Shown piece by piece: positions 41,709 to 51,315 of a stretch of 64,000 bases of DNA. A program made the translations under genes and the position numbers. This stretch comes from Roseomonas haemaphysalidis. GTDB taxonomy: Bacteria; Pseudomonadota; Alphaproteobacteria; Acetobacterales; Acetobacteraceae. The stretch spans positions 310,001-374,000 of the forward strand of contig NZ_CP061179.1 of NCBI RefSeq assembly GCF_017355405.1, written 5' to 3'. The notes beneath the pieces are model-generated. The model saw only the letters and a program-made list of their open reading frames with translations. It was not told the origin of the DNA and ran no database searches. Within the stretch, counting starts at the first letter, position 1, and each line of letters opens with the position of its first letter.

Positions 41709-42890
41709 ATGCTGAGCACCGAACCCGCGCCAATGGCGGCCATCCGCCGCGCTCGCCTGCCCCGCGACGACCGCTTTGTCGCCGAGGCGGAGGCCCTGGG
41801 CTTCGGCTTTCATTCCCCGGACGGGCGCGAGTACTGGTGCCGCGATGCCTGCTACGTGCTGGACGCCCGCGTGGCGGAGCGCATGGCGGCGGCGGCCCGG
41901 GAGCTGGAAGCCATGATCGACGCCGCCGCCGATGCGGTGGTGCGGGCCGGCGACTACCGTGGCTTTGGCTTCTCCGATCGTCTAGCGCGGCTGGTGGAGG
42001 CCTCGCACCGCGCGGCGGAGCCGTCGCTCTACGGGCGCTTTGACTTCCGGCTGGCGCCGGATGGCGACATCAAGCTGTTCGAGTTCAATGCCGAAACCCC
42101 CGCCGCGCTGTTCGAGGCTGCGGTGGTGCAGCTCGCCTGGTTCGAACGCCAGGCACCGAACCTGCCCCCCGGCGCCGACCAGTGGAGTGCCATCGACGAC
42201 GCGCTGGTGGCCCGCTGGCCTGCCCTGCGGCTGCCGCCGCGCATCCACTTCGCCGCCGAGCGGAACCGGGACGACGAGATCGCCCAGGTGGCCTACCTGA
42301 TGGCCACCGCCCGCGCCGCCGGGCATGGCGCGGAATTCGTCGCGGTGGACGACATCTCCTGGCATGCGGGCCTCGGACGCTTTGTGTTGCCGGACGGCGG
42401 GCCGCTGGAAGCATGCTTCAAGCTCTATCCCTGGGACTGGATGGATGCCGAGGAAGGCGGGCCGCTGCTGCCCGCGCGCGGCACCCGGTGGATCGAGCCG
42501 GCGCGGCGCATGCTGCAGGCCAACAAGGCCATCCTGGCGGAGCTGTGGCGGATGTTCCCCGGCCACCCCCTGCTGCTGCCGGCCGCGCTGGAGCGCGGCG
42601 GGGTGGCGGGCGATGCCATCGGCAAGCCGGCGCTGGGGCTGGAAGGCCATGGCATGCTGGTGGACGCCGATGCCGGCGCCTCGACCGAGCGGGCGGAGGG
42701 GCTGCCACCCTCGCCCACCGTGTGGCAGCAATGGGCGCCGTTGCCGGCGCATGACGCGGGCGGCATGGCCGCCTATCCGGTGATGGGGGTGTGGTCCGTG
42801 GGCGGCCAGCCCTGCGGCCTGGGCATCCGCGAAGGAGACGGGCTGGTGACCACGCTGGAAGACCGCTTCGTGCCGCATATCCTGCTGTGA
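41709..42890 (+). CDS. Glutathionylspermidine synthase-like ATP-grasp ligase (YgiC/YjfC type)
   Basis: Predicted ATP-dependent amide ligase (393 residues), related to the synthetase half of E. coli glutathionylspermidine synthase and to YgiC/YjfC. The metal/ATP residues are intact: Arg110 and Asp112 in YGRFDF, Glu125 and Asn127 in LFEFNAETPA, and a Lys in IGKPALGLEGHG. There is no amidase domain. It should join a carboxylate to an amine (a peptide tail, polyamine or cell-wall amine), but the substrates are unknown. The ATG at 41709 is chosen; ATG at 41733 is possible. It is the first gene of the eight-gene envelope cluster, eight bases before its paralogue. Confidence 0.85.
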   Translation: MLSTEPAPMAAIRRARLPRDDRFVAEAEALGFGFHSPDGREYWCRDACYVLDARVAERMAAAARELEAMIDAAADAVVRAGDYRGFGFSDRLARLVEASHRAAEPSLYGRFDFRLAPDGDIKLFEFNAETPAALFEAAVVQLAWFERQAPNLPPGADQWSAIDDALVARWPALRLPPRIHFAAERNRDDEIAQVAYLMATARAAGHGAEFVAVDDISWHAGLGRFVLPDGGPLEACFKLYPWDWMDAEEGGPLLPARGTRWIEPARRMLQANKAILAELWRMFPGHPLLLPAALERGGVAGDAIGKPALGLEGHGMLVDADAGASTERAEGLPPSPTVWQQWAPLPAHDAGGMAAYPVMGVWSVGGQPCGLGIREGDGLVTTLEDRFVPHILL

Positions 42891-42898
42891 GGACCACC

Positions 42899-44059
42899 AT
42901 GCTTTCGCTTCGCCGGCTGCGCGCCCCCACCCCCGGCCCGTTTCGCGACCGGCTGCGCGCGCTGGGCCTGCTGGAGCCCGGCGCCGCCGGCGGCGCACCT
43001 TATTGGAACACGGAGGCTGCCTACGCCTTGACCGCCGACGAAGCCGCCCGCTGGCTGCAGGCCGCCGACACCGTGCATGCCCTGTGCCTGCGGGCGATCG
43101 ACGCGGTGATCGCGGCCGGCGACTACGCCCCCTTCGGCATCCAGAGCGCCAACATGGTTTCGGCCATCGAGCAAAGCTGGCGGGCGCGCGAAACCGCCTT
43201 TGTGGGCCGCATGGACTTCACCCTGGACGGAAACGGCGTACCCCGGCTGCTGGACTACGAGGCCGATGGCCCGGTGTGCATGCCGGAGGCGTCCTATCTG
43301 CAGTGGGAATGGTTTGAAAGCTGGAAGGCCGCGCATGGCGCCGGCGGCGAGGACCAGGAAAACCTGATCTACGAGAAGCTGCTCGACATGTGGCGCAAGC
43401 TGCGCCTGGGCGGTCGCCTGGCCATTGCCAGCGGCGGCGATGCCGACGGCGATGGCGCACCGCTGGACACCGCCGAGCGCTTCACCGCCGACTGGCTGGC
43501 CGACACGGCGGGCGAGGTGGGGCTGGACCTGCACCGCTGCGGCATTGCCCAGGTGGGATGGGACACAGAGGCGCTGCGCTTCACCGACGTCGGGGACGCG
43601 GTGCTGGAACTGCTGGTCAAGCTTTATCCCTGGCGTTGGATGGAGCGGGAACAGAACGTCGATGCCCTGCCCGCCAGCCGCACACGCATCCTGCCGCAGC
43701 CCTGGACACGCCTGCTGGCGGACAAGGCGCTGCTGGCGGTGTTGTGGACGATGTTTCCCGATTGCCCCTTTCTGCTGCCCGCGGCGCTGGAGCCCGGCGT
43801 GCTGGACGGGCCGGTGGTGAGCAAACCCCGCAGGGGCTGGGATGGCGAAGGCGTGTCGTTGCCTGGCCAGCCCGCCGCCACGGAGCATGGCCCCTTGCTG
43901 TGGCAGGCCCATTGCCCCCTGCCGCTGCTGGACGGCGTGCATGCCGCGCCCAGCGTGTGGATGATCGATGGCGCCGCCGCCGGGCTGTCGTTCCGCGAAT
44001 CCCCCATGCCCGTCACGCGCATCGATGCGCGCTTCGTGCCCCACATCCTCGCCCCCTGA
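42899..44059 (+). CDS. Divergent paralogous ATP-grasp ligase with altered metal site
   Basis: Second glutathionylspermidine-synthase-like protein (386 residues), colinear with the first, sharing the WNTEAAY, KLYPWRWM and FVPHILAP frames. Arg104 and Asp106 (GRMDF) remain, but the Glu-x-Asn metal pair reads Asp119-Tyr-Glu121 (LLDYEADGP), and the distal KPxxGREG-like loop reads KPRRGWDG. It may have a different substrate, bind a different metal or act as a non-catalytic partner. The ATG at 42899 is six bases after the first ligase stop. Confidence 0.83.
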   Translation: MLSLRRLRAPTPGPFRDRLRALGLLEPGAAGGAPYWNTEAAYALTADEAARWLQAADTVHALCLRAIDAVIAAGDYAPFGIQSANMVSAIEQSWRARETAFVGRMDFTLDGNGVPRLLDYEADGPVCMPEASYLQWEWFESWKAAHGAGGEDQENLIYEKLLDMWRKLRLGGRLAIASGGDADGDGAPLDTAERFTADWLADTAGEVGLDLHRCGIAQVGWDTEALRFTDVGDAVLELLVKLYPWRWMEREQNVDALPASRTRILPQPWTRLLADKALLAVLWTMFPDCPFLLPAALEPGVLDGPVVSKPRRGWDGEGVSLPGQPAATEHGPLLWQAHCPLPLLDGVHAAPSVWMIDGAAAGLSFRESPMPVTRIDARFVPHILAP

Positions 44060-44079
44060 GCCGGAGCCGCAGACCGCGC

Positions 44080-44505
44080 ATGCACGCCGTCGATATCCTC
44101 GACATCTTTCCCGCCACGCTGCTGGGCTTTCTGGTGGCTTTCACGCTGGGCGCGGCGTTCTGGGCGCTCGGCCTGATGCTGGTGTCCGCGGTGACGCCGC
44201 AAAAGGAACTGGCGCTGCTGCGCGCCGGCAACCTGCCCACCGCCATCGCCTTTGGCGGCAAGGCGGTGGGCATGGTGTTGCCCATCGCCGCCGTGGCGGG
44301 CAGCGCCGCCGGACCGCTGGACCAGGCCATCTGGTGCGCCGTGGCGGTGCTGGTGCAGTTGCTGGCGCACCTGTTGTTGTCCGCCCTGCTGCAGGGACGC
44401 CTGCGGGCGGAGATCGAGGCGGACGAGGTGGGCGGCGGCGCGGTGTTCATCGCCTTCATGCAGGTGGGCGCCGGCATTCTCAACAATGCCTGCATGGCGG
44501 GCTGA
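44080..44505 (+). CDS. DUF350 membrane protein (YjfL-like)
   Basis: A 141-residue integral membrane protein with four predicted helices in two similar halves (FPATLLGFLVAFTLGAAFWALGLMLVS, AIAFGGKAVGMVLPIAAVAGSAAG, and so on), matching DUF350. E. coli YjfL is this family and sits beside YjfM (DUF1190) and YjfC (ATP-grasp ligase), the same trio as here. Function is unknown; the association suggests an envelope modification system. It lies 20 bases after the second ligase. Confidence 0.87.
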   Translation: MHAVDILDIFPATLLGFLVAFTLGAAFWALGLMLVSAVTPQKELALLRAGNLPTAIAFGGKAVGMVLPIAAVAGSAAGPLDQAIWCAVAVLVQLLAHLLLSALLQGRLRAEIEADEVGGGAVFIAFMQVGAGILNNACMAG

Positions 44506-44508
44506 GCG

Positions 44509-45480
44509 GTGACGCACGCGCCGCCCCCGCGCCTTGGCCGTTCCCGCACCGTGCGGGCGGCGGCGCTGGTGACGGTGGGCCTTGCCGCGACAGCCTGCGA
44601 CGAAGCGCCGCTCCCCGACACGCCTCTGGACGCCGCCCAGCGCCTGGAAGCCTGCGAGGCGGCGCATCGGCGCCTGTCCGCCGACCCGGCGCGGTGCCAG
44701 ACGCTGGAACGCGTGGCGCAAAGCGAACAGGCGGCCACGCGCCCCCGCTTCACCCTTCGGGCGGATTGCGAGGCCAGCTTCGGCGCGGGGGCCTGCGAGG
44801 GCGGCGAACCCTCGGCCGGCAATCTGTGGCGGCCCGTGCTGGCCGGCTGGTTCGCCGACCCGCGAAGCGGCGACCGGCTGCCGGCCGTGCGGGACCGGCA
44901 AGGCGGCGTCTGGGCACTCGGCCCCCCGGGGCAGCAGCCGCAACCGGTCACGGACGGGCTCCTGCCGCCCAAAAGCGTCGGCCAGGATCTTGGCGGCACC
45001 AGCTTCGACCGCCGGGCGCCCGGCTATGACGACCGCGCGGACTGCGAAGCCGGCTGGGACCGCTGCGAGCCCACCGTCCTGCCCAGCCGGTTCACGGAAC
45101 AACAGGGCTGCGAGGCCGTGTGGACCCGCTGCCAGGAACTGTCGCTGCCCGGCACCCGCATCGCCAGCGGCGGCGGGTCGGGCGGCGTCGTCGGCGGCCA
45201 CGGCTGGTCCGGCCATTACAACCAGGTGTGGTTCAGCCACACCGGCTACGCGCCGCGCTGGCAGGGCTGGGGCTGGACCGCGGACCGCGCGCCCGCCGCA
45301 ACCTATCGTCCCGCCGGCGGCGGCGTTGCGCAGGCCTGGGACAGCGGCGCGCGGCGGCTGGCGCCGGCGCGCAGCCTGGCCAGCATCGCGGGCGATGGCG
45401 GCGCGCTGTCCAGCCGCACCGAAACCGTGTCCCGCGCCGGCTTCGGCGCGACGGGCCGGTCTTATTCCTCCGGAGGCTGA
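44509..45480 (+). CDS. DUF1190 lipoprotein (YgiB/YjfM-like)
   Basis: Predicted lipoprotein (323 residues). The signal ends in a lipobox, ATAC with Cys30. The mature part matches DUF1190: repeated acidic Cys segments (ADCEASFGAGAC, ADCEAGWDRCEP, QGCEAVWTRC), a NLWRPVLAGWFADPR core and a Gly/Ser-rich low-complexity tail. E. coli YgiB and YjfM occur with ATP-grasp partners YgiC and YjfC, which have been proposed to modify them. The GTG at 44509 starts three bases after the DUF350 stop. The exposed tail is a candidate modification target; this is inference. Confidence 0.83.
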   Translation: MTHAPPPRLGRSRTVRAAALVTVGLAATACDEAPLPDTPLDAAQRLEACEAAHRRLSADPARCQTLERVAQSEQAATRPRFTLRADCEASFGAGACEGGEPSAGNLWRPVLAGWFADPRSGDRLPAVRDRQGGVWALGPPGQQPQPVTDGLLPPKSVGQDLGGTSFDRRAPGYDDRADCEAGWDRCEPTVLPSRFTEQQGCEAVWTRCQELSLPGTRIASGGGSGGVVGGHGWSGHYNQVWFSHTGYAPRWQGWGWTADRAPAATYRPAGGGVAQAWDSGARRLAPARSLASIAGDGGALSSRTETVSRAGFGATGRSYSSGG

Positions 45481-45483
45481 GGC

Positions 45484-46107
45484 ATGATGCACGAGGCCGG
45501 GGCGGCCACCTGGATGTCCGCGGCGCAGCGGCGGCTTTTGCTGGCCTTGCTGGGTGGCGCCGCCGCGATGGGGTTGGTGGGCTGGGCGGTGCCGCCTGCC
45601 GGGGCAGCCTTCTGGGCGGCGCTGCTGGGGGGTGCCGCCGCCGGGCTGGTATTCGGCTGGTGGCTCGGCGGCGCCGCGGCCGGGCAGCGGCTGGACCGCA
45701 TGTTGCTGGGCCGCTTCGGCCCACCCGCGCCGGCCTGGGCGCCGTCCCACCCGGCGGCCATGGAGCCCTCCGCGCGCGAAGCGCTGGAACGCGCCGCGGT
45801 GCCGATGCTGCTGAGCCAGCTGCAGGAAGCCGGACGCAGCGGCGGCGCGCCGGCCACGGTGGAACCGCTGCTGGCCATGGCGCGCGACATCATGCGCCAG
45901 CCCGTGCCGCCTGCGCGCGAGATCACCCTCCTGGTGACCGCCCTGCCACCCATCGTCCAGGCCGCCGGGCGCAAGGACCGCGACGTGACCAGCGCCTGCG
46001 CGCTGTTGCAGGCCGCGCTGCGCAGCCGGGTGGAGGAACCCGACCTGTCGGCGCAGCTCGACAAGCTGCTGGCCGTTCCGGCCCGGCGTGGGCGGGGGCG
46101 GTCATGA
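45484..46107 (+). CDS. Membrane protein of unknown function (207 aa)
   Basis: Not recognised. Two predicted helices near the N-terminus (about 18-36 and 40-62, rich in Gly and Ala) are followed by a cytoplasmic helical domain of about 140 residues (ALERAAVPMLLSQLQEAG, ALPPIVQAAGRKDRDVTSACALLQAAL). GGAGG lies seven bases before the ATG. The stop overlaps the next start (ATGA). It is the fifth gene of the ATP-grasp cluster. Confidence 0.65.
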   Translation: MMHEAGAATWMSAAQRRLLLALLGGAAAMGLVGWAVPPAGAAFWAALLGGAAAGLVFGWWLGGAAAGQRLDRMLLGRFGPPAPAWAPSHPAAMEPSAREALERAAVPMLLSQLQEAGRSGGAPATVEPLLAMARDIMRQPVPPAREITLLVTALPPIVQAAGRKDRDVTSACALLQAALRSRVEEPDLSAQLDKLLAVPARRGRGRS

Positions 46108-46373
46108 GGCGGCAGGACCTGGACGGCGCCGTGCTGTGGATGCTGTCCGGCGCCCTGCTGCTGTTTGCCGCAGGCCTGCTGTTCGCCTTGTCCGCCTGGG
46201 ACCGGGCGGCCACCGACCGGGCCTATGTGGAAGCCGCGGCGCGGGCGGAGCACGCCGGCTCGCCCGCCCTGCGGGTCTGGGTGCCGCAACAGGATGCCAC
46301 GGCCACGGCGCGCCTGTGGCAGCAACAATGGATGCTGGACCAGCAGGGCGGCCAGCCGAAAGGCCGGCCGTGA
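46104..46373 (+). CDS. Small single-pass membrane protein (89 aa)
   Basis: Not recognised. One membrane helix (about 10-30, AVLWMLSGALLLFAAGLLFAL) with a short helical tail (AYVEAAARAEHAG, ATARLWQQQWMLDQQ). It overlaps the genes on both sides (ATGA before, GTGA after), so it is co-translated with them. Size and position suggest a small accessory subunit of the cluster's membrane complex. Confidence 0.62.
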   Translation: MRRQDLDGAVLWMLSGALLLFAAGLLFALSAWDRAATDRAYVEAAARAEHAGSPALRVWVPQQDATATARLWQQQWMLDQQGGQPKGRP

Positions 46374-46972
46374 TCGCCGCGCTCGCCCTGGTGCTGGGCC
46401 TGCTGCTGCTGGGCTACGGCATGCTGCGCACCCTGCGGGCGGGGCGGCGGAAGCTGGCGCGTGACGAGGCCACTTGCCTGCGCATCGCCGTGCCGCCGCG
46501 TCAGAACCACCCGGTGCTGACGTTGCGGCACGGTCGCGACGTGCTGTTCGGCCCGGTGCGGGCGCAGTGGAACGCGCCCGCCAGCACCGCCATGGCCTGC
46601 GGCAACGCCACCCGCGACCCTGCCCTGCCGGGCGGCGACGTGCCCGCCGGGCGCTACCGGGTGCTGGACGCCGCCGACCTGTCCGGCGCGGCGGAGCCAA
46701 TCCTCCGGGGACTGGGGCCGCTGGCGCTGATCCTGCGGCCGGACCATGGCGGGCGGGACATCCTACTGCATGGCACCCGGCGGCACGGGCCCGACTGCAA
46801 CGGCGTGGCCATCCTGAACCGCACGCTGGACGCTCTGCTGCAGCAGCTTGGCGACCCGCGCGGGTTGCGCGTGGAGATCGAGCGCCGGAACATCCGGCGC
46901 AACGGCTGGGGCGGCACCGGCCGCCCGCCCGGCACGGCGAACCGCCGGGCCGGCCAGACACGGAAAGGATGA
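46370..46972 (+). CDS. Membrane-anchored protein resembling a degenerate L,D-transpeptidase
   Basis: A 200-residue protein with an N-terminal anchor (MIAALALVLGLLLLGYGML) and a periplasmic or cytoplasmic domain. Its order of motifs recalls YkuD: GGDVPAGRYRV (like TPTGxFxI), ILLHGT with His134 and a following Cys143 in GPDCNGVAILN where transpeptidases have SHGCIRM. The loop is not canonical, so catalysis is uncertain and the assignment is my inference from layout. The GTG at 46370 overlaps the previous stop; the stop overlaps the DUF1176 gene. Confidence 0.55.
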   Translation: MIAALALVLGLLLLGYGMLRTLRAGRRKLARDEATCLRIAVPPRQNHPVLTLRHGRDVLFGPVRAQWNAPASTAMACGNATRDPALPGGDVPAGRYRVLDAADLSGAAEPILRGLGPLALILRPDHGGRDILLHGTRRHGPDCNGVAILNRTLDALLQQLGDPRGLRVEIERRNIRRNGWGGTGRPPGTANRRAGQTRKG

Positions 46973-48042
46973 CCCCTGGGATGTTGAAGCTTTGGCGGGG
47001 CGGAATGCCGCTGGCGGCCGCCCTGGCACTGGGCTGGGCGGGAGCCGCGGCGGCGGCGGAGCCGTCCTACGACACCTACGGCTCCTGGCTGATCGCCTGC
47101 GACAATGGCCTGACCTGCGAAGCCAAGGGCTTCGAGGACGGCGTGGCGGAACGGCCGGACCTGCGGCTGTCGCGGGCCGCCGGCCCCGACGCGGCCACCA
47201 CCGTGACGCTGACGGTGCCCTTCACGGCGGAGCGCGACGCGGTGCGCGTGGACGGGCGCCCGCTGAGCCTGGCCGCCCCGGCCTGGACCGTGAAGCAGGA
47301 AGACGGCCTCACCACCTTTGCCGCCGACCAGCCGGCGGCGGTCGCGGACATGCTGTCGCGCATCCGCGATGCGGCCACCCTGCAGGTCGGCACGGAGGAA
47401 GAAGGCGTGGTGCCGCTGGCCGGAATGATGGCCGCGCTGCTGCGGATGGATGAGCGCCAGGGGCGGCTGGATGGCGTAACCGCCCTGGTGCGCCGTGGCA
47501 CCGCGCCCGCCGCGCAGGTGCCCGCCGCGCCGACGCTGCCGGCGGTTCCGCGCTTCAGGCCCGCCACAGCGTTGAGCGAGGCACAGGGCAATGCCCTGAT
47601 CCGCCGCGCCAAGCTGGCCAGCGCCGCGCGCTTCAAGGCCGAGGAATGCGAGGAGAACGATGCGCAGGAGGCCGATGCCACCGGTGCCTTCGCGCTGGAT
47701 GAACGCAATGCACTGGTGATCCTGCCGTGCGGCATGGGCGCTTATCAGGGGTGGTCGCTGGTTTCCATCGTGCCGCGCACGGCGAACGGGGCACCCGTGC
47801 CTTTCCGGCCGGTCCTGCCGTTCCGGGGCAATACGCCGGAGAATTCCCTGACAGAGCCGTATTTCGATCCGGACACCGGCATCCTGGTGTTCAGTGCCAA
47901 GGGCCGGGGACTGGCGGATTGCGGCATCACGGCGGAATGGAGCTGGGACGGACGCCAGTTCCAGCTCAGGGGTGCCGCCTTCCAGGACGCCTGTGGCGGC
48001 AGCCAGCCCGGCGACTGGCCCACCCTGTACCGGTCACGGTGA
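46969..48042 (+). CDS. DUF1176 exported protein
   Basis: Periplasmic protein of 357 residues, last gene of the cluster. A signal peptide (LAAALALGWAGAAAAAEP) is followed by YGSWLIACDNGLTCEAKGF, the DUF1176 signature, and Cys-containing segments through to GRGLADCGITAEWSWDGRQF. The family function is unknown. The ATG at 46969 overlaps the preceding stop; an ATG at 46981 is an equally plausible start with better spacing to GGAAAGG. A strong hairpin follows the stop. Confidence 0.83.
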   Translation: MTPGMLKLWRGGMPLAAALALGWAGAAAAAEPSYDTYGSWLIACDNGLTCEAKGFEDGVAERPDLRLSRAAGPDAATTVTLTVPFTAERDAVRVDGRPLSLAAPAWTVKQEDGLTTFAADQPAAVADMLSRIRDAATLQVGTEEEGVVPLAGMMAALLRMDERQGRLDGVTALVRRGTAPAAQVPAAPTLPAVPRFRPATALSEAQGNALIRRAKLASAARFKAEECEENDAQEADATGAFALDERNALVILPCGMGAYQGWSLVSIVPRTANGAPVPFRPVLPFRGNTPENSLTEPYFDPDTGILVFSAKGRGLADCGITAEWSWDGRQFQLRGAAFQDACGGSQPGDWPTLYRSR

Positions 48043-48105: not shown

Positions 48106-48522
48106 TTACTTCAGGTGCTGGGCGAGATGCTTGTTCATCTCGAACATCGTCACCTTGGACTTGCCGAACACCTTGCCCAGCTTGTCATCCGCCAGGATCT
48201 CGCGGCCATCCTTGGGGTTCTGCAGCTTGTGTTCCTTGATGTAGGCCCACACCTTGCTGACCGCCTCGCCCCGGGCGAGCTTGTCGGAGCCGACCACCGC
48301 CGCCAGATCCTCGGACGGCTGCAAGGGCTGCTGCAAGGCGTTGGGCTTGCGACCCTCGGCGGGTTGCGCGACCTTCTTGGCCTTTACCGGCTTGGCTTCG
48401 GCGGCACCATCCTTGGCCTTCGCCGGCTTGGCGGCGGCATCAGCCTTTTTCGCCTTCACCGGCTTCGCGGCGGCGTCGGAATCTTTCGGCTCAGACGTCT
48501 TAGAGGTCGTCTTGGTGGGCAT
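48106..48522 (-). CDS. SWIB/MDM2 domain protein with histone-H1-like tail
   Basis: A 138-residue protein. The first half is a Lys/Ala/Pro-rich H1-like repeat (KPVKAKKADAAAKPAKAKDG). The second half is a SWIB domain (LAAVVGSDKLARGEAVSKVW, IKEHKLQNPKDGREILADDKL, FEMNKHLAQHL). Similar proteins occur in Chlamydia and some alphaproteobacteria and are presumed chromatin-like or nucleoid-associated. The ATG at 48522 with AGGAG seven bases upstream is chosen over the GTG at 48528. No partner gene is adjacent. Confidence 0.88.
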   Translation of the reverse strand: MPTKTTSKTSEPKDSDAAAKPVKAKKADAAAKPAKAKDGAAEAKPVKAKKVAQPAEGRKPNALQQPLQPSEDLAAVVGSDKLARGEAVSKVWAYIKEHKLQNPKDGREILADDKLGKVFGKSKVTMFEMNKHLAQHLK

Positions 48523-48654
48523 GGCCACACTCCTGATCTGTCACCCGCGGCGCCTGCCGATAACATGTCGGCGCAGGCAGCAGCGTAACGACGCCAAGGC
48601 TAGGCAGTTTCCGCCGTTCGCAACAAGCAAAACCCACCGGCCCTGTTGCGCTCG

Positions 48655-49257
48655 TCACCGGTCCAGCCCGTCGCGCCATGCCAGGGCGCGCTGCTCCGGC
48701 GCCGCGTGGCCCGTGATGTCCGATACCACGGCCACGCAATCGGCCCCGGCCACGAGGCAACCGGGGGCACGCTCCAGCGTGATGCCGCCGATCGCCACCA
48801 GCGGCAGCGCGCCGATGCGGCGCTTCCATGCCCGCAGCCGGTCCAGCCCCTGCGGCGCCCAGGGCATCACCTTCAGCGTGGTGGGATACACCGGCCCCAG
48901 CGCCACGTAATCGGGCCCGGCCGCCAGCGCGGTGTCCAGCTCCGCCTCGGAATGCGTGCTGAGGCCGAGGCGGAGGCCGGCGGCGCGGATGGCCGCCAGG
49001 TCGGCGTCCCGCAGGTCCTCCTGCCCCAGGTGGACGGCATCCAGCTTCAGGTCGATGGCGACGCGCCAGAAATCGTTCAGCACCAGCAGGGCGCCGTGCG
49101 CGCGGCACAGCGCCGCCGCTTCCGCCGCCTGGCGGCGCAGCTCGGCGTCCGGCGCGTCCTTCAGGCGGAGCTGGATCAGCTTCGCCCCGGGCACGAGCCG
49201 CCGCACCCAGCCGAGGTCCGGCACCACGGGGTAGAAGCGGGACGGCAGGCGCATCAT
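48655..49257 (-). CDS. thiE: Thiamine phosphate synthase
   Basis: Couples HMP-pyrophosphate and thiazole phosphate to thiamine phosphate. The 200-residue TIM barrel has [44 protein letters not shown] and [12 protein letters not shown], the expected phosphate and pyrophosphate loops. The start overlaps the thiG stop (ATGA). It is the last gene of the riboswitch-controlled thiOSGE operon. Confidence 0.93.
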
Positions 49258-50036
49258 GCGAACACCGCCGCGCCCACCACGGGCGTGGAAGGCGAGGCCA
49301 TGTCGCGCGCCTCCATCGGGTCAGCCTCAAAGGCCAGGCGGCCGGACCGCACCGCCAGCGCCATGGCACGGGCCATGGCCACGGGGTCGCCGGCGCGGGC
49401 CACGGCGGTGTTCAGCAACACGCCATCGAAGCCCAGTTCCATGGCCGCCGCCGCGTGGGACGGCAGGCCGATGCCGGCGTCGACGATCAGCGGCACATCG
49501 GGAAAATGCGCGCGCAGGCTGCGCAGCCCGTAGGGGTTGTTGAGGCCGCGGCCGGAGCCGATGGGCGCCCCCCAGGGCATCAGCACCTCGCAGCCGGCAT
49601 CCAGCAGCCGGCCGGCCACCACCAAGTCCTCCGTGGTGTAGGGAAACACCTGGAAGCCATCGCGCGACAGGATGCGCGCGGCTTCCACCAGCCCGAAGAC
49701 GTCGGGTTGCAGGGTGTCGTCCTCGCCGATCACCTCCAGCTTGATCCAGGGCGTGCCGAACACCTCGCGCGCCATCTGCGCGGTCAGCACCGCCTCCTTC
49801 ACGGAATGGCAGCCGGCGGTGTTGGGCAGCACGCGCGGCCCGAGGCCGCCGACCAAATCCCAGAATCGCTGGCCGGCGCCCGCGCCCTCCTCGCCCGCCG
49901 CGCCTTCCCGGCGCAGCGACACGGTGACCACGCCGGCCTCCGCCGCCCGGATGGCCTCCGCCATCACCGCGGGCGAAGGATACAGCGCGGTGCCCAGCAA
50001 CAGCCGCGAGGACAGGTCGGTCCCATATGCCCGCAT
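49254..50036 (-). CDS. thiG: Thiazole synthase
   Basis: Builds the thiazole ring from deoxyxylulose phosphate, dehydroglycine and ThiS-thiocarboxylate (260 residues). The Schiff-base Lys99 is in [56 protein letters not shown] and [18 protein letters not shown] complete the barrel. It lies three bases after thiS and overlaps thiE. Confidence 0.95.
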
Positions 50037-50039
50037 GGT

Positions 50040-50237
50040 TCAGCCCCCCTGCATGGGGCCGAGGATCTCGACCACGTCGCCCTCGGCAAGCCGGCATTCG
50101 GCGCGGCGCGCGGCGGGCACGAACTCGCTGCGCAGCGCGGTGGCCACGCGCGGGCCGGTGTAGCCCAGCTCCTCCAGCACCTCGGCCAGGGTTGCCGCCG
50201 CCACGCTGCGGGGCTTGCCGTTGACGATGATATTCAT
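50040..50237 (-). CDS. thiS: Sulfur carrier protein ThiS
   Basis: Ubiquitin-like sulfur carrier of 65 residues (MNIIVNGKPRSV, VATALRSEFVPAARR) ending in the required Gly-Gly, which is adenylated and thiocarboxylated before sulfur transfer to ThiG. The start overlaps the thiO stop (ATGA). A dedicated ThiF is not in the window. Confidence 0.95.
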   Translation of the reverse strand: MNIIVNGKPRSVAAATLAEVLEELGYTGPRVATALRSEFVPAARRAECRLAEGDVVEILGPMQGG

Positions 50238-51241
50238 GCCGCTTCTCCTGGCAGGCCGGGGGTTGAGATGCCGAACACCGCCGCGGCGACCTGTTCGGCG
50301 AGCGAAGGCGAAAGCAGGAAGCCGTGCCTGAACATGCCGTTGACGCGCAGCACGCGGCCGTCACGGCGCAGCGCGGGCATGTTGTCGGGAAAGGCGGGGC
50401 GGATGTTGCTGGCGGCTTCCAGGATCTCGGCCTCGCCGAAGGCGGGGTGCAGCGCATAGGCGCCGTTCAGCAGCTCCATGGCGGATCGCGCGGTGATAGC
50501 GTGGCGCCCGGCACTCTCGATCATCGTGGCGCCCACCATGAACAGCCCTTCGCCGCGCGGTACGACGTAGAGCGGGATGCGCGGGTGCAGCAGCCGCACG
50601 GGGCGCGACAGCGACAGGCCGGTGCAGCGCAGCAGCAGCATCTCGCCACGCACGCCGCGCAGGTCGGGCAGCGCCGCCGCCGCAGCATGGCCGCGGCAGT
50701 CCACCACATGGTCGAAGCCGGCGGCATCGGCTTCCCTGAAGTCGCCTTCCCGGAACACCGCGCCACGGCCTTCCAGCGCCCCGGCCAGCGACAGCAGCGC
50801 CGCGCGCGGGTCCAGGTGCGCCTCTTCCGGAAAGAACAGCCCGTCGGCGAAGCGGCCTTCCAGCTCGGGTTCCAGCGCGGCGATGGCGGCAGCGTCGCAG
50901 CGGCGGTGGCCTGTGGTGCGGCGCGCGAAGCGGTCCAGCTCCCCCCGGTCCCGCCGCGCGGCCAGCAGCAGGCTGCCGCGGCGCAGCGTGCCCGGCACCC
51001 GCGCCGCCCACCAGCCGATGGCGGCGGCACCCGGCGCCACCAGCGCCGGCGGGGCATCGGCGGCCTCGCACCACGGCGCCAGCATGCCGCCCGCCACGTG
51101 GGAGGCCCGGCTGGCCGGTTCCGGGCGGTGCAGCACCGTGACGGCCGCGCCGCGCTCGGCCAGCACGGTGGCCACCGCCAGCCCGGCGACGCCGGCGCCG
51201 ATCACCAGAACCCGGGGGGCGGTATCCGCTGTCTCAGGCAT
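50234..51241 (-). CDS. thiO: Glycine oxidase ThiO
   Basis: FAD-dependent oxidase (335 residues) that turns glycine into the iminoglycine used by ThiG under oxygen. The dinucleotide motif VLVIGAGVAGLAVATVLAERG is at the N-terminus; AGGMLAPWCEA, HLDPRAALLSLAGAL and MFRHGFLLSPSLAEQVAA are DAO/ThiO landmarks. The ATG at 51241 with AAGGGAG is preferred to upstream alternatives. ThiO rather than ThiH indicates aerobic thiazole synthesis. Confidence 0.9.
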   Translation of the reverse strand: MPETADTAPRVLVIGAGVAGLAVATVLAERGAAVTVLHRPEPASRASHVAGGMLAPWCEAADAPPALVAPGAAAIGWWAARVPGTLRRGSLLLAARRDRGELDRFARRTTGHRRCDAAAIAALEPELEGRFADGLFFPEEAHLDPRAALLSLAGALEGRGAVFREGDFREADAAGFDHVVDCRGHAAAAALPDLRGVRGEMLLLRCTGLSLSRPVRLLHPRIPLYVVPRGEGLFMVGATMIESAGRHAITARSAMELLNGAYALHPAFGEAEILEAASNIRPAFPDNMPALRRDGRVLRVNGMFRHGFLLSPSLAEQVAAAVFGISTPGLPGEAA

Positions 51242-51315
51242 GGCCAGGGCTCCCTTGCGCTGGGCCATGCGGAATCGGGGGGAAAGAGAGCGGGCCTGGT
51301 GGCAGGCCGTTGTTT

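Follow-up and report, generated by a model that had tools for sequence, protein, structure and literature searches.

Gene arrangement at the locus

The 64,000-nucleotide stretch of the Roseomonas haemaphysalidis genome analysed here (RefSeq assembly GCF_017355405.1, contig NZ_CP061179.1, positions 310,001 to 374,000, forward strand; referred to below as the window) carries eight tightly packed open reading frames (ORFs), g1 to g8, all on the + strand and spanning positions 41709–48042. They include two ATP-grasp ligases of the GSP_synth family and a lipoprotein-like protein, g4, whose C-terminal tail motif and terminal residue are common to tail proteins encoded beside GSP_synth ligases of several phyla.

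The ligases are encoded by g1 (41709..42890, 393 residues; PF03738, E 8.8e-98, 328 bits) and g2 (42899..44059, 386 residues; PF03738, E 5.8e-75, 253 bits), both of which pass the family cut-off of 29.3 bits. They are followed by g3 (44080..44505), a DUF350 membrane protein of the YjfL family (PF03994, E 1.7e-24), and g4 (44509..45480), a DUF1190 lipoprotein-like protein (PF06693, E 6.4e-15) with a lipobox-like ATAC. Next come three membrane proteins. The product of g5 (45484..46107) consists of a hydrophobic hairpin and an Ala/Leu-rich part, g6 (46104..46373) encodes a small single-pass protein with a conserved W[ND]xAxxDRA[FY]V followed by AA, and g7 (46370..46972) a membrane-anchored protein with a YkuD fold. 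No Pfam match was found for these three, and NCBIfam gave nothing better than E 0.1. The last gene, g8 (46969..48042), encodes a DUF1176 protein (PF06674, E 5.4e-70). The gaps from g1 to g5 measure 8, 20, 3 and 3 bp, and the last three junctions are 4-bp overlaps. In the whole 4.9 Mb genome there are two GSP_synth genes and one DUF1190 gene (E 0.001). A preliminary description of this DNA had listed eight packed, overlapping genes, namely two ligases of this type, DUF350, DUF1190, three unknown membrane-anchored proteins and DUF1176; the coordinates and the Pfam searches bear out this inventory.

A conserved C-terminal tail in DUF1190 proteins and other ligase partners

The N-terminus of the g4 protein looks like a signal sequence and includes a lipobox-like Cys. 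The DUF1190 domain covers only residues 45–115 of 323, and the protein ends in SRAGFGATGRSYSSGG. The predicted substrate tail comprises the last 15 residues (RAGFGATGRSYSSGG, 45433..45477, + strand). The pattern [VI][ST]R[GA]G[FY]G...G/S, applied to ligase partner proteins, is present in g4 as the ending given above. Among the nearest relatives of g4 (the best 44 of the 50 matches listed, P0048–P0091), all 44 carry RAGFG[SA]TG...GG, and their last 16 residues are free of Asp and Glu. Aligned without gaps from the C-terminus, the relatives have a mean majority share of 0.91 over the last 17 positions versus 0.51 over the preceding 43, the latter figure being depressed by length differences. The six remaining matches (P0092–P0097) are distant, short or broken, and RxGFG is still found in five of them. 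E. coli YgiB and YjfM, encoded beside YgiC and YjfC, carry the tail as well; YjfM ends in SRGGYGRSSSARGHWGG.

Across the ligase partners the consensus is [VI][ST]RGGFG, then a Ser/Gly-rich, Asp/Glu-poor stretch and mostly a final G or S. In 157 unique tails the five core positions are R in 137, G in 125, G in 157, F in 148 and G in 155, and [VI][ST] mostly precedes them. The motif is followed by a median of 11 residues (range 7–51), 57% of which are Gly or Ser. Asp and Glu make up 1.8% of these residues versus 5.7% of the 80 residues before. The final residue is G in 98, S in 49, E in 7, T in 2 and A in 1. It would be too strong to say that all tails end in GG, since only 96 of the 157 do; the others end in GS, SS, AS, GE and more. 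Because these tails had been picked with a composition filter that disfavours Asp and Glu, the count was repeated without it. The unfiltered set (strict motif, within 300 bp of a ligase) holds 127 tails, with final G in 77, S in 45, T in 2, E in 2 and A in 1; Asp and Glu amount to 1.7% after the motif versus 5.6% before, and neither occurs after the motif in 103 of the 127. As a background, other ORFs of more than 150 residues, many of which are not genes, end in G, S, E, T or A in 41% and in GG in 0.9% of cases.

Among the carriers are DUF1190 proteins as well as short proteins with a signal-like start, several of them 80–120 residues long, found in records of Streptomyces, Actinomadura, Chitinophaga, Verrucomicrobiaceae and Planctomycetales. 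A loose lipobox pattern was found in 121 of the 157 carriers and a strongly hydrophobic segment in 112. Two variant tails, in L253 and L254, lack the last G of the core and read RGGF instead (SRGGFTSPNN..., SRGGFKSSNS...); both end in SSGG and lie immediately upstream of a ligase. A sub-type ending in Glu (..GGGGE, ..SGSE, ..GGVGE) occurs in L043, L044, L105, L115, L117 and L163 and possibly reflects a different acceptor chemistry. Graspetide core peptides use Asp or Glu side chains for ring formation. Such side-chain rings are disfavoured here, since 128 of the 157 tails lack both residues after the motif, and all 44 near relatives of g4 are without them in the last 16 residues.

Pairing of tail and ligase

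Loci were sampled by ligase from 13 stretches of the family survey described below, the best 80 of 582 contig matches, 40 stand-alone loci drawn from 69 GSP_synth places, the window and E. coli, which yielded 145 unique full ligases in 133 clusters. The 80 contig loci are those closest to the ligases of the window, and sampling beyond Pseudomonadota was non-random. For 125 of the 133 clusters a tail ORF was found within 1.5 kb of the stand-alone ligase on its own strand, versus 5 on the opposite strand; the definition of a tail ORF includes one of the five final residues seen in the 157 tails (G, S, E, T or A). Within 300 bp the counts are 113 and 1. Of the eight misses, four have the tail elsewhere: in L228, L231 and L233 the tail protein is 2.6–3.6 kb away on the other strand (read in L178, L172 and L170), and in L041 it sits on the contig of L040. 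L085 (contig end) and L092 (assembly gap) cannot be read for a tail, and L137 and L221 show none. When RxG[FYL]G was required among the 45 C-terminal residues of an ORF within 300 bp (the strict motif), 171 stand-alone clusters, which include those sampled by DUF1190, gave 128 hits on the same strand, 14 with the reversed motif and 2 on the opposite strand. A loose-pattern control with the reversed motif gave 47–63 of 171; it carries no information, since the reversed motif is itself part of tails such as RGGFGG. For fused synthetases of the Gss type (glutathionylspermidine synthetase with an amidase domain), no tail ORF was found within 1.5 kb on the same strand (0/11), and one of the 11 has such an ORF within 4.5 kb on either strand.

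The converse sampling started from DUF1190: a draw of 398 genomes from the phylum, with that of the window excluded, supplied 67 loci. The tail is present in 61 of these, 59 of which have a ligase in the fetched locus, and in the other two the ligase is 3.7 kb (G450) and 2.9 kb (G496) away. None of the six tail-less loci contains a ligase (Fisher p 1e-8 for tail against ligase in the locus, with related genomes that are not independent). The tail-less proteins are L197, L198 and L200 (three copies in genome G335), L196 (G527), L195 (G235) and L199 (G514). GSP_synth is absent from the whole genomes G235 and G514; in G527 and G335 it is found elsewhere, beside a tail protein of its own. The pairing of tail and stand-alone ligase is shown by these counts.

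Among 150 neighbour proteins from 34 loci (the scan took in 150 of 193 proteins picked), three are members of the S-adenosylmethionine decarboxylase family (AdoMet_dc) and four of Spermine_synth. The source genome itself has one S-adenosylmethionine decarboxylase-family gene and one spermidine synthase-family gene, close together. The same neighbour scan found an R2K_3 ATP-grasp protein (PF14243) near one GSP_synth cluster.

The two ligases

With g1 as the sole query, the structure search matched the solved structures of YjfC (7uk6, E 1e-57) and YgiC (7uk8, E 1.9e-56), both of which are labelled peptide-spermidine ligases in RefSeq. Reportedly, judging by its title, the work of Pederick 2023 assigns them this same activity. 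YgiC is stated to lack Gss activity in PMC12506659, which cites Sui 2012.

By length g1 and g2 belong to the stand-alone type, as the open frames of the fused synthetases comprise about 620–656 residues. Six positions of E. coli Gss, R316, D318, E330, N332, K498 and K533, are taken here to be metal- and ATP-site residues, and g1 retains all six. The g2 protein, at most 36% identical to the g1 type although it is a PF03738 protein, shows E330D and N332E. This double exchange occurs in 11/11 g2-type ligases of related loci versus 0/159 other stand-alone ligases. Positions 391 and 392 presumably take part in polyamine binding. Each is acidic in 158 of the 159 other stand-alone ligases, whereas the g2-type ligases lack an acidic residue at 391. 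Gss Gln 582 is replaced in 159/159 of the other stand-alone ligases. Being substituted at 330, 332 and 391, g2 is therefore altered in its use of substrate or metal, or it is inactive. In view of these exchanges we regard g2 as a partner that has diverged or serves regulation.

A seven-gene unit of the Roseomonas group

Of 150 genomes surveyed in the family, the source genome among them, 21 have GSP_synth, 6 have DUF1190 and 4 have g7. The fourth g7 match (G066) is weak (E 5.5e-4), contains an internal stop and was taken as chance. Twelve genomes of the Roseomonas group were compared, namely the window, G104, G107 and nine named records. The order of g1–g7, including g5 and g6, is identical in nine of them, and the other three are interrupted by contig ends (L085, L091) or an assembly gap (L092). 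In L088 g6 and in L090 g5 fall under the BLAST cut, yet the ORFs in these places align; in G107 the unit is split over two contig ends. The g3 proteins of these loci share 68–86% identity. DUF1176 is absent after g7 in all eight relatives where this position can be read, and g8 has no match at E 0.01 in the other 11 genomes. Since the order of g1–g7 is kept and DUF1176 is missing downstream of g7 elsewhere, g1–g7 form a conserved seven-gene unit of the Roseomonas group, and g8 is a local neighbour outside it. The proposal that the genes added to the core travel with it in relatives thus holds for the second ligase, g5, g6 and g7 and fails for DUF1176, which had been counted as a member of the cluster. 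Genome G016 of the same genus, rated 100% complete, has no GSP_synth match; the cluster is therefore patchy even inside the genus.

For g7 a YkuD fold was found, with Foldseek by itself giving a weak best match (E 3.7e-3). The catalytic motif of L,D-transpeptidases is, as we assume, of the type SxGC[IV]R. At the position of the catalytic Cys, Gly is found in 42/42 aligned g7 sequences, and the sole Cys nearby is in the window's own protein, two residues before that position. Because positive charges follow the membrane helix in 42/42 sequences, the domain is predicted to be cytosolic. An active L,D-transpeptidase is rejected on both grounds despite the fold, and g7 is better called a pseudo-L,D-transpeptidase; of the "transpeptidase-like" protein in the preliminary description the fold remains and the enzyme does not. 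Relatives of g7 number at least 47 among the matches listed, and those with an organism name are all Roseomonas-type.

Beyond g8 the - strand of the window encodes a small basic protein rich in Lys, Ala and Pro (48106–48528), with AKPVKAKK-type repeats and a less repetitive C-terminal part, and then a region (48655–51268) that, judged by eye, resembles a thiamine operon (thiE, thiG, thiS, thiO).

Proposed mechanism and alternative explanations

Reactions of ATP-grasp ligases in the GSP_synth family start with the activation of a carboxylate, which is then linked to an amine; in the case of Gss, the carboxylate is that of the Gly in glutathione and the amine is spermidine. We consider it probable, with due reserve, that the cluster of the Roseomonas group is an elaboration of a widespread module of ligase and tail protein, in which the ligase joins a polyamine to the C-terminal carboxylate of the tail. 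This module would consist of a stand-alone ligase of the YgiC/YjfC type and a probably exported, often lipobox-bearing protein with an RGGFG tail. The ligase would recognise RGGFG and, driven by ATP, activate the C-terminal carboxylate, usually the sole one after the motif. It is the restricted final residue together with the depletion of Asp and Glu that implicates this carboxylate. The amide would then form with an amino group of spermidine or of a similar polyamine. As the N-termini suggest that the carriers are exported, this modification would precede or accompany export. The lipoprotein would finally present in the envelope a tail made cationic by its polyamine cap, which, speculatively, might bind anionic lipopolysaccharide, phospholipid or wall material. 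DUF350 and g5–g7 may form a surrounding membrane complex; a transfer complex of the membrane proteins, as put forward in the preliminary description, is conceivable.

Several points weigh against this proposal. The modification of the tail is inferred and not observed, and a cytosolic ATP-dependent enzyme acting on exported tails would require that the reaction takes place before export. Not every tail ends in Gly (49 end in Ser and 7 in Glu, of 157). L137 and L221 are without a tail protein, although the L221 locus is short and only about 1.5 kb upstream are covered. A weak extra DUF1190-like match (L193, E 1e-8, uncounted) is tail-less and shares its locus with a ligase and a tail protein. 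The changes of g2 at metal-site positions mean that it may be inactive. In an AlphaFold2 model of a single chain, a ligase read through into the downstream DUF1190 protein, the tail is disordered, with a predicted local distance difference test score (pLDDT) of about 30; this tail is atypical and that part was modelled without an alignment, and the model is neutral on docking.

The tail could instead be an acyl donor for an acceptor other than a polyamine, such as a lipid amine, a protein Lys or a wall amine, so that the lipoprotein is tethered. The pairing and the small terminal residue would suit any acyl donor, and the hydrophobic segments and lipobox-like motifs of the tail proteins fit such a role. 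However, the stand-alone ligases retain the acidic positions of the polyamine site, RefSeq names their E. coli relatives spermidine ligases, polyamine genes occur among the neighbours, and periplasmic amines are out of reach for a cytosolic enzyme; we regard such an acceptor as unlikely. The strictest conservation lies in RGGFG itself, 7–51 residues before the end, while the terminal residues vary, as would be expected if RGGFG were a docking or feedback element through which the tail protein anchors or regulates a ligase that makes a small peptide-polyamine conjugate. Yet no final residue other than G, S, E, T or A occurs in any of the 157 tails or of the 127 in the unfiltered set, the depletion of Asp and Glu points to the terminal carboxylate, and a docking motif has no need of a C-terminal place on an exported protein. 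Docking without modification thus appears improbable too. The preliminary description had also considered that the ligases and g7 modify cell-wall material. Apart from the YkuD fold of g7 itself, the evidence speaks against a modification of peptidoglycan by these proteins: the g7 domain has Gly in place of the catalytic Cys and a predicted cytosolic location, and the named sources of its relatives, all Roseomonas-type among the matches listed, differ from the wide distribution of the ligase-tail pair. We consider this version highly improbable.

Polyamine amidation of the tail C-terminus is consequently the most economical reading of the sequences and our best reading. The amide modification of the lipoprotein put forward at the outset is thereby retained and narrowed to the C-terminal tail of the DUF1190 protein, for which the pairing and the RefSeq annotation of YgiC and YjfC argue. 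Overall, the observations of the preliminary description are confirmed and its interpretation is partly supported. A broader generalisation, which in our view could equally well hold or fail, is that stand-alone GSP_synth ligases across bacteria are enzymes dedicated to protein modification, each of which caps the C-terminus of a cognate RGGFG-tailed exported lipoprotein with spermidine or a similar polyamine, the Roseomonas form being a variant with two ligases and a pseudo-transpeptidase scaffold. If the proposal is true, polyamines are added to the termini of envelope proteins in a wide range of bacteria, a post-translational modification that may be termed C-terminal polyaminylation, and polyamine metabolism would be tied to envelope stress systems of the kind that has been described with PspA.

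Comparison with known systems

Operons that combine a ligase, DUF350 and DUF1190 are already in print: PMC11237479 describes PspA-linked operons with a GSP-like ligase, DUF350, a DUF1190 lipoprotein and polyamine genes, and presents DUF1190 as a metal-chelating lipoprotein. To this extent the cluster cannot be called an undescribed system. In contrast to the window, the passages of that article consulted mention no conserved C-terminal tail, no tandem ligases and no proteins like g5–g7. The seven-gene form with tandem ligases was not found in the literature seen, in part as excerpts, nor was a description of the RGGFG tail as a substrate; this negative does not extend to Pederick 2023, the 2009 amidoligase survey or Sui 2012. 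The same sources, as far as seen, name no physiological peptide substrate of YgiC or YjfC and no settled function for DUF1190 proteins.

Gss belongs to the same synthetase family as the stand-alone ligases and likewise joins a C-terminal Gly carboxylate to spermidine. It differs by its fused amidase and by the lack of a tail protein within 1.5 kb (0/11), as seen with E. coli gss, and Gln 582 is replaced in the stand-alone enzymes. From the YkuD L,D-transpeptidases g7 is set apart by the Gly at the catalytic Cys position (42/42) and by its predicted cytosolic location.

The closest parallels are yjfIJKLMC and ygiBC of E. coli, which have the same ligase family and a DUF1190 partner with the same kind of tail. 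In yjfLMC DUF350 is present too, with ligase, DUF1190 and DUF350 genes adjacent as they are in the window. As had been proposed, yjfLMC and ygiBC hold the core. The window differs by its tandem ligases upstream of DUF350 and DUF1190, by three extra membrane proteins and by a longer DUF1190 protein (323 residues versus 223 and 212 in E. coli). No genes of the YjfI, YjfJ (PspA family) or YjfK type were found in a Pfam scan of its eight genes. With YgiB and YjfM, the tail is a candidate substrate encoded directly beside its enzyme in E. coli K-12.

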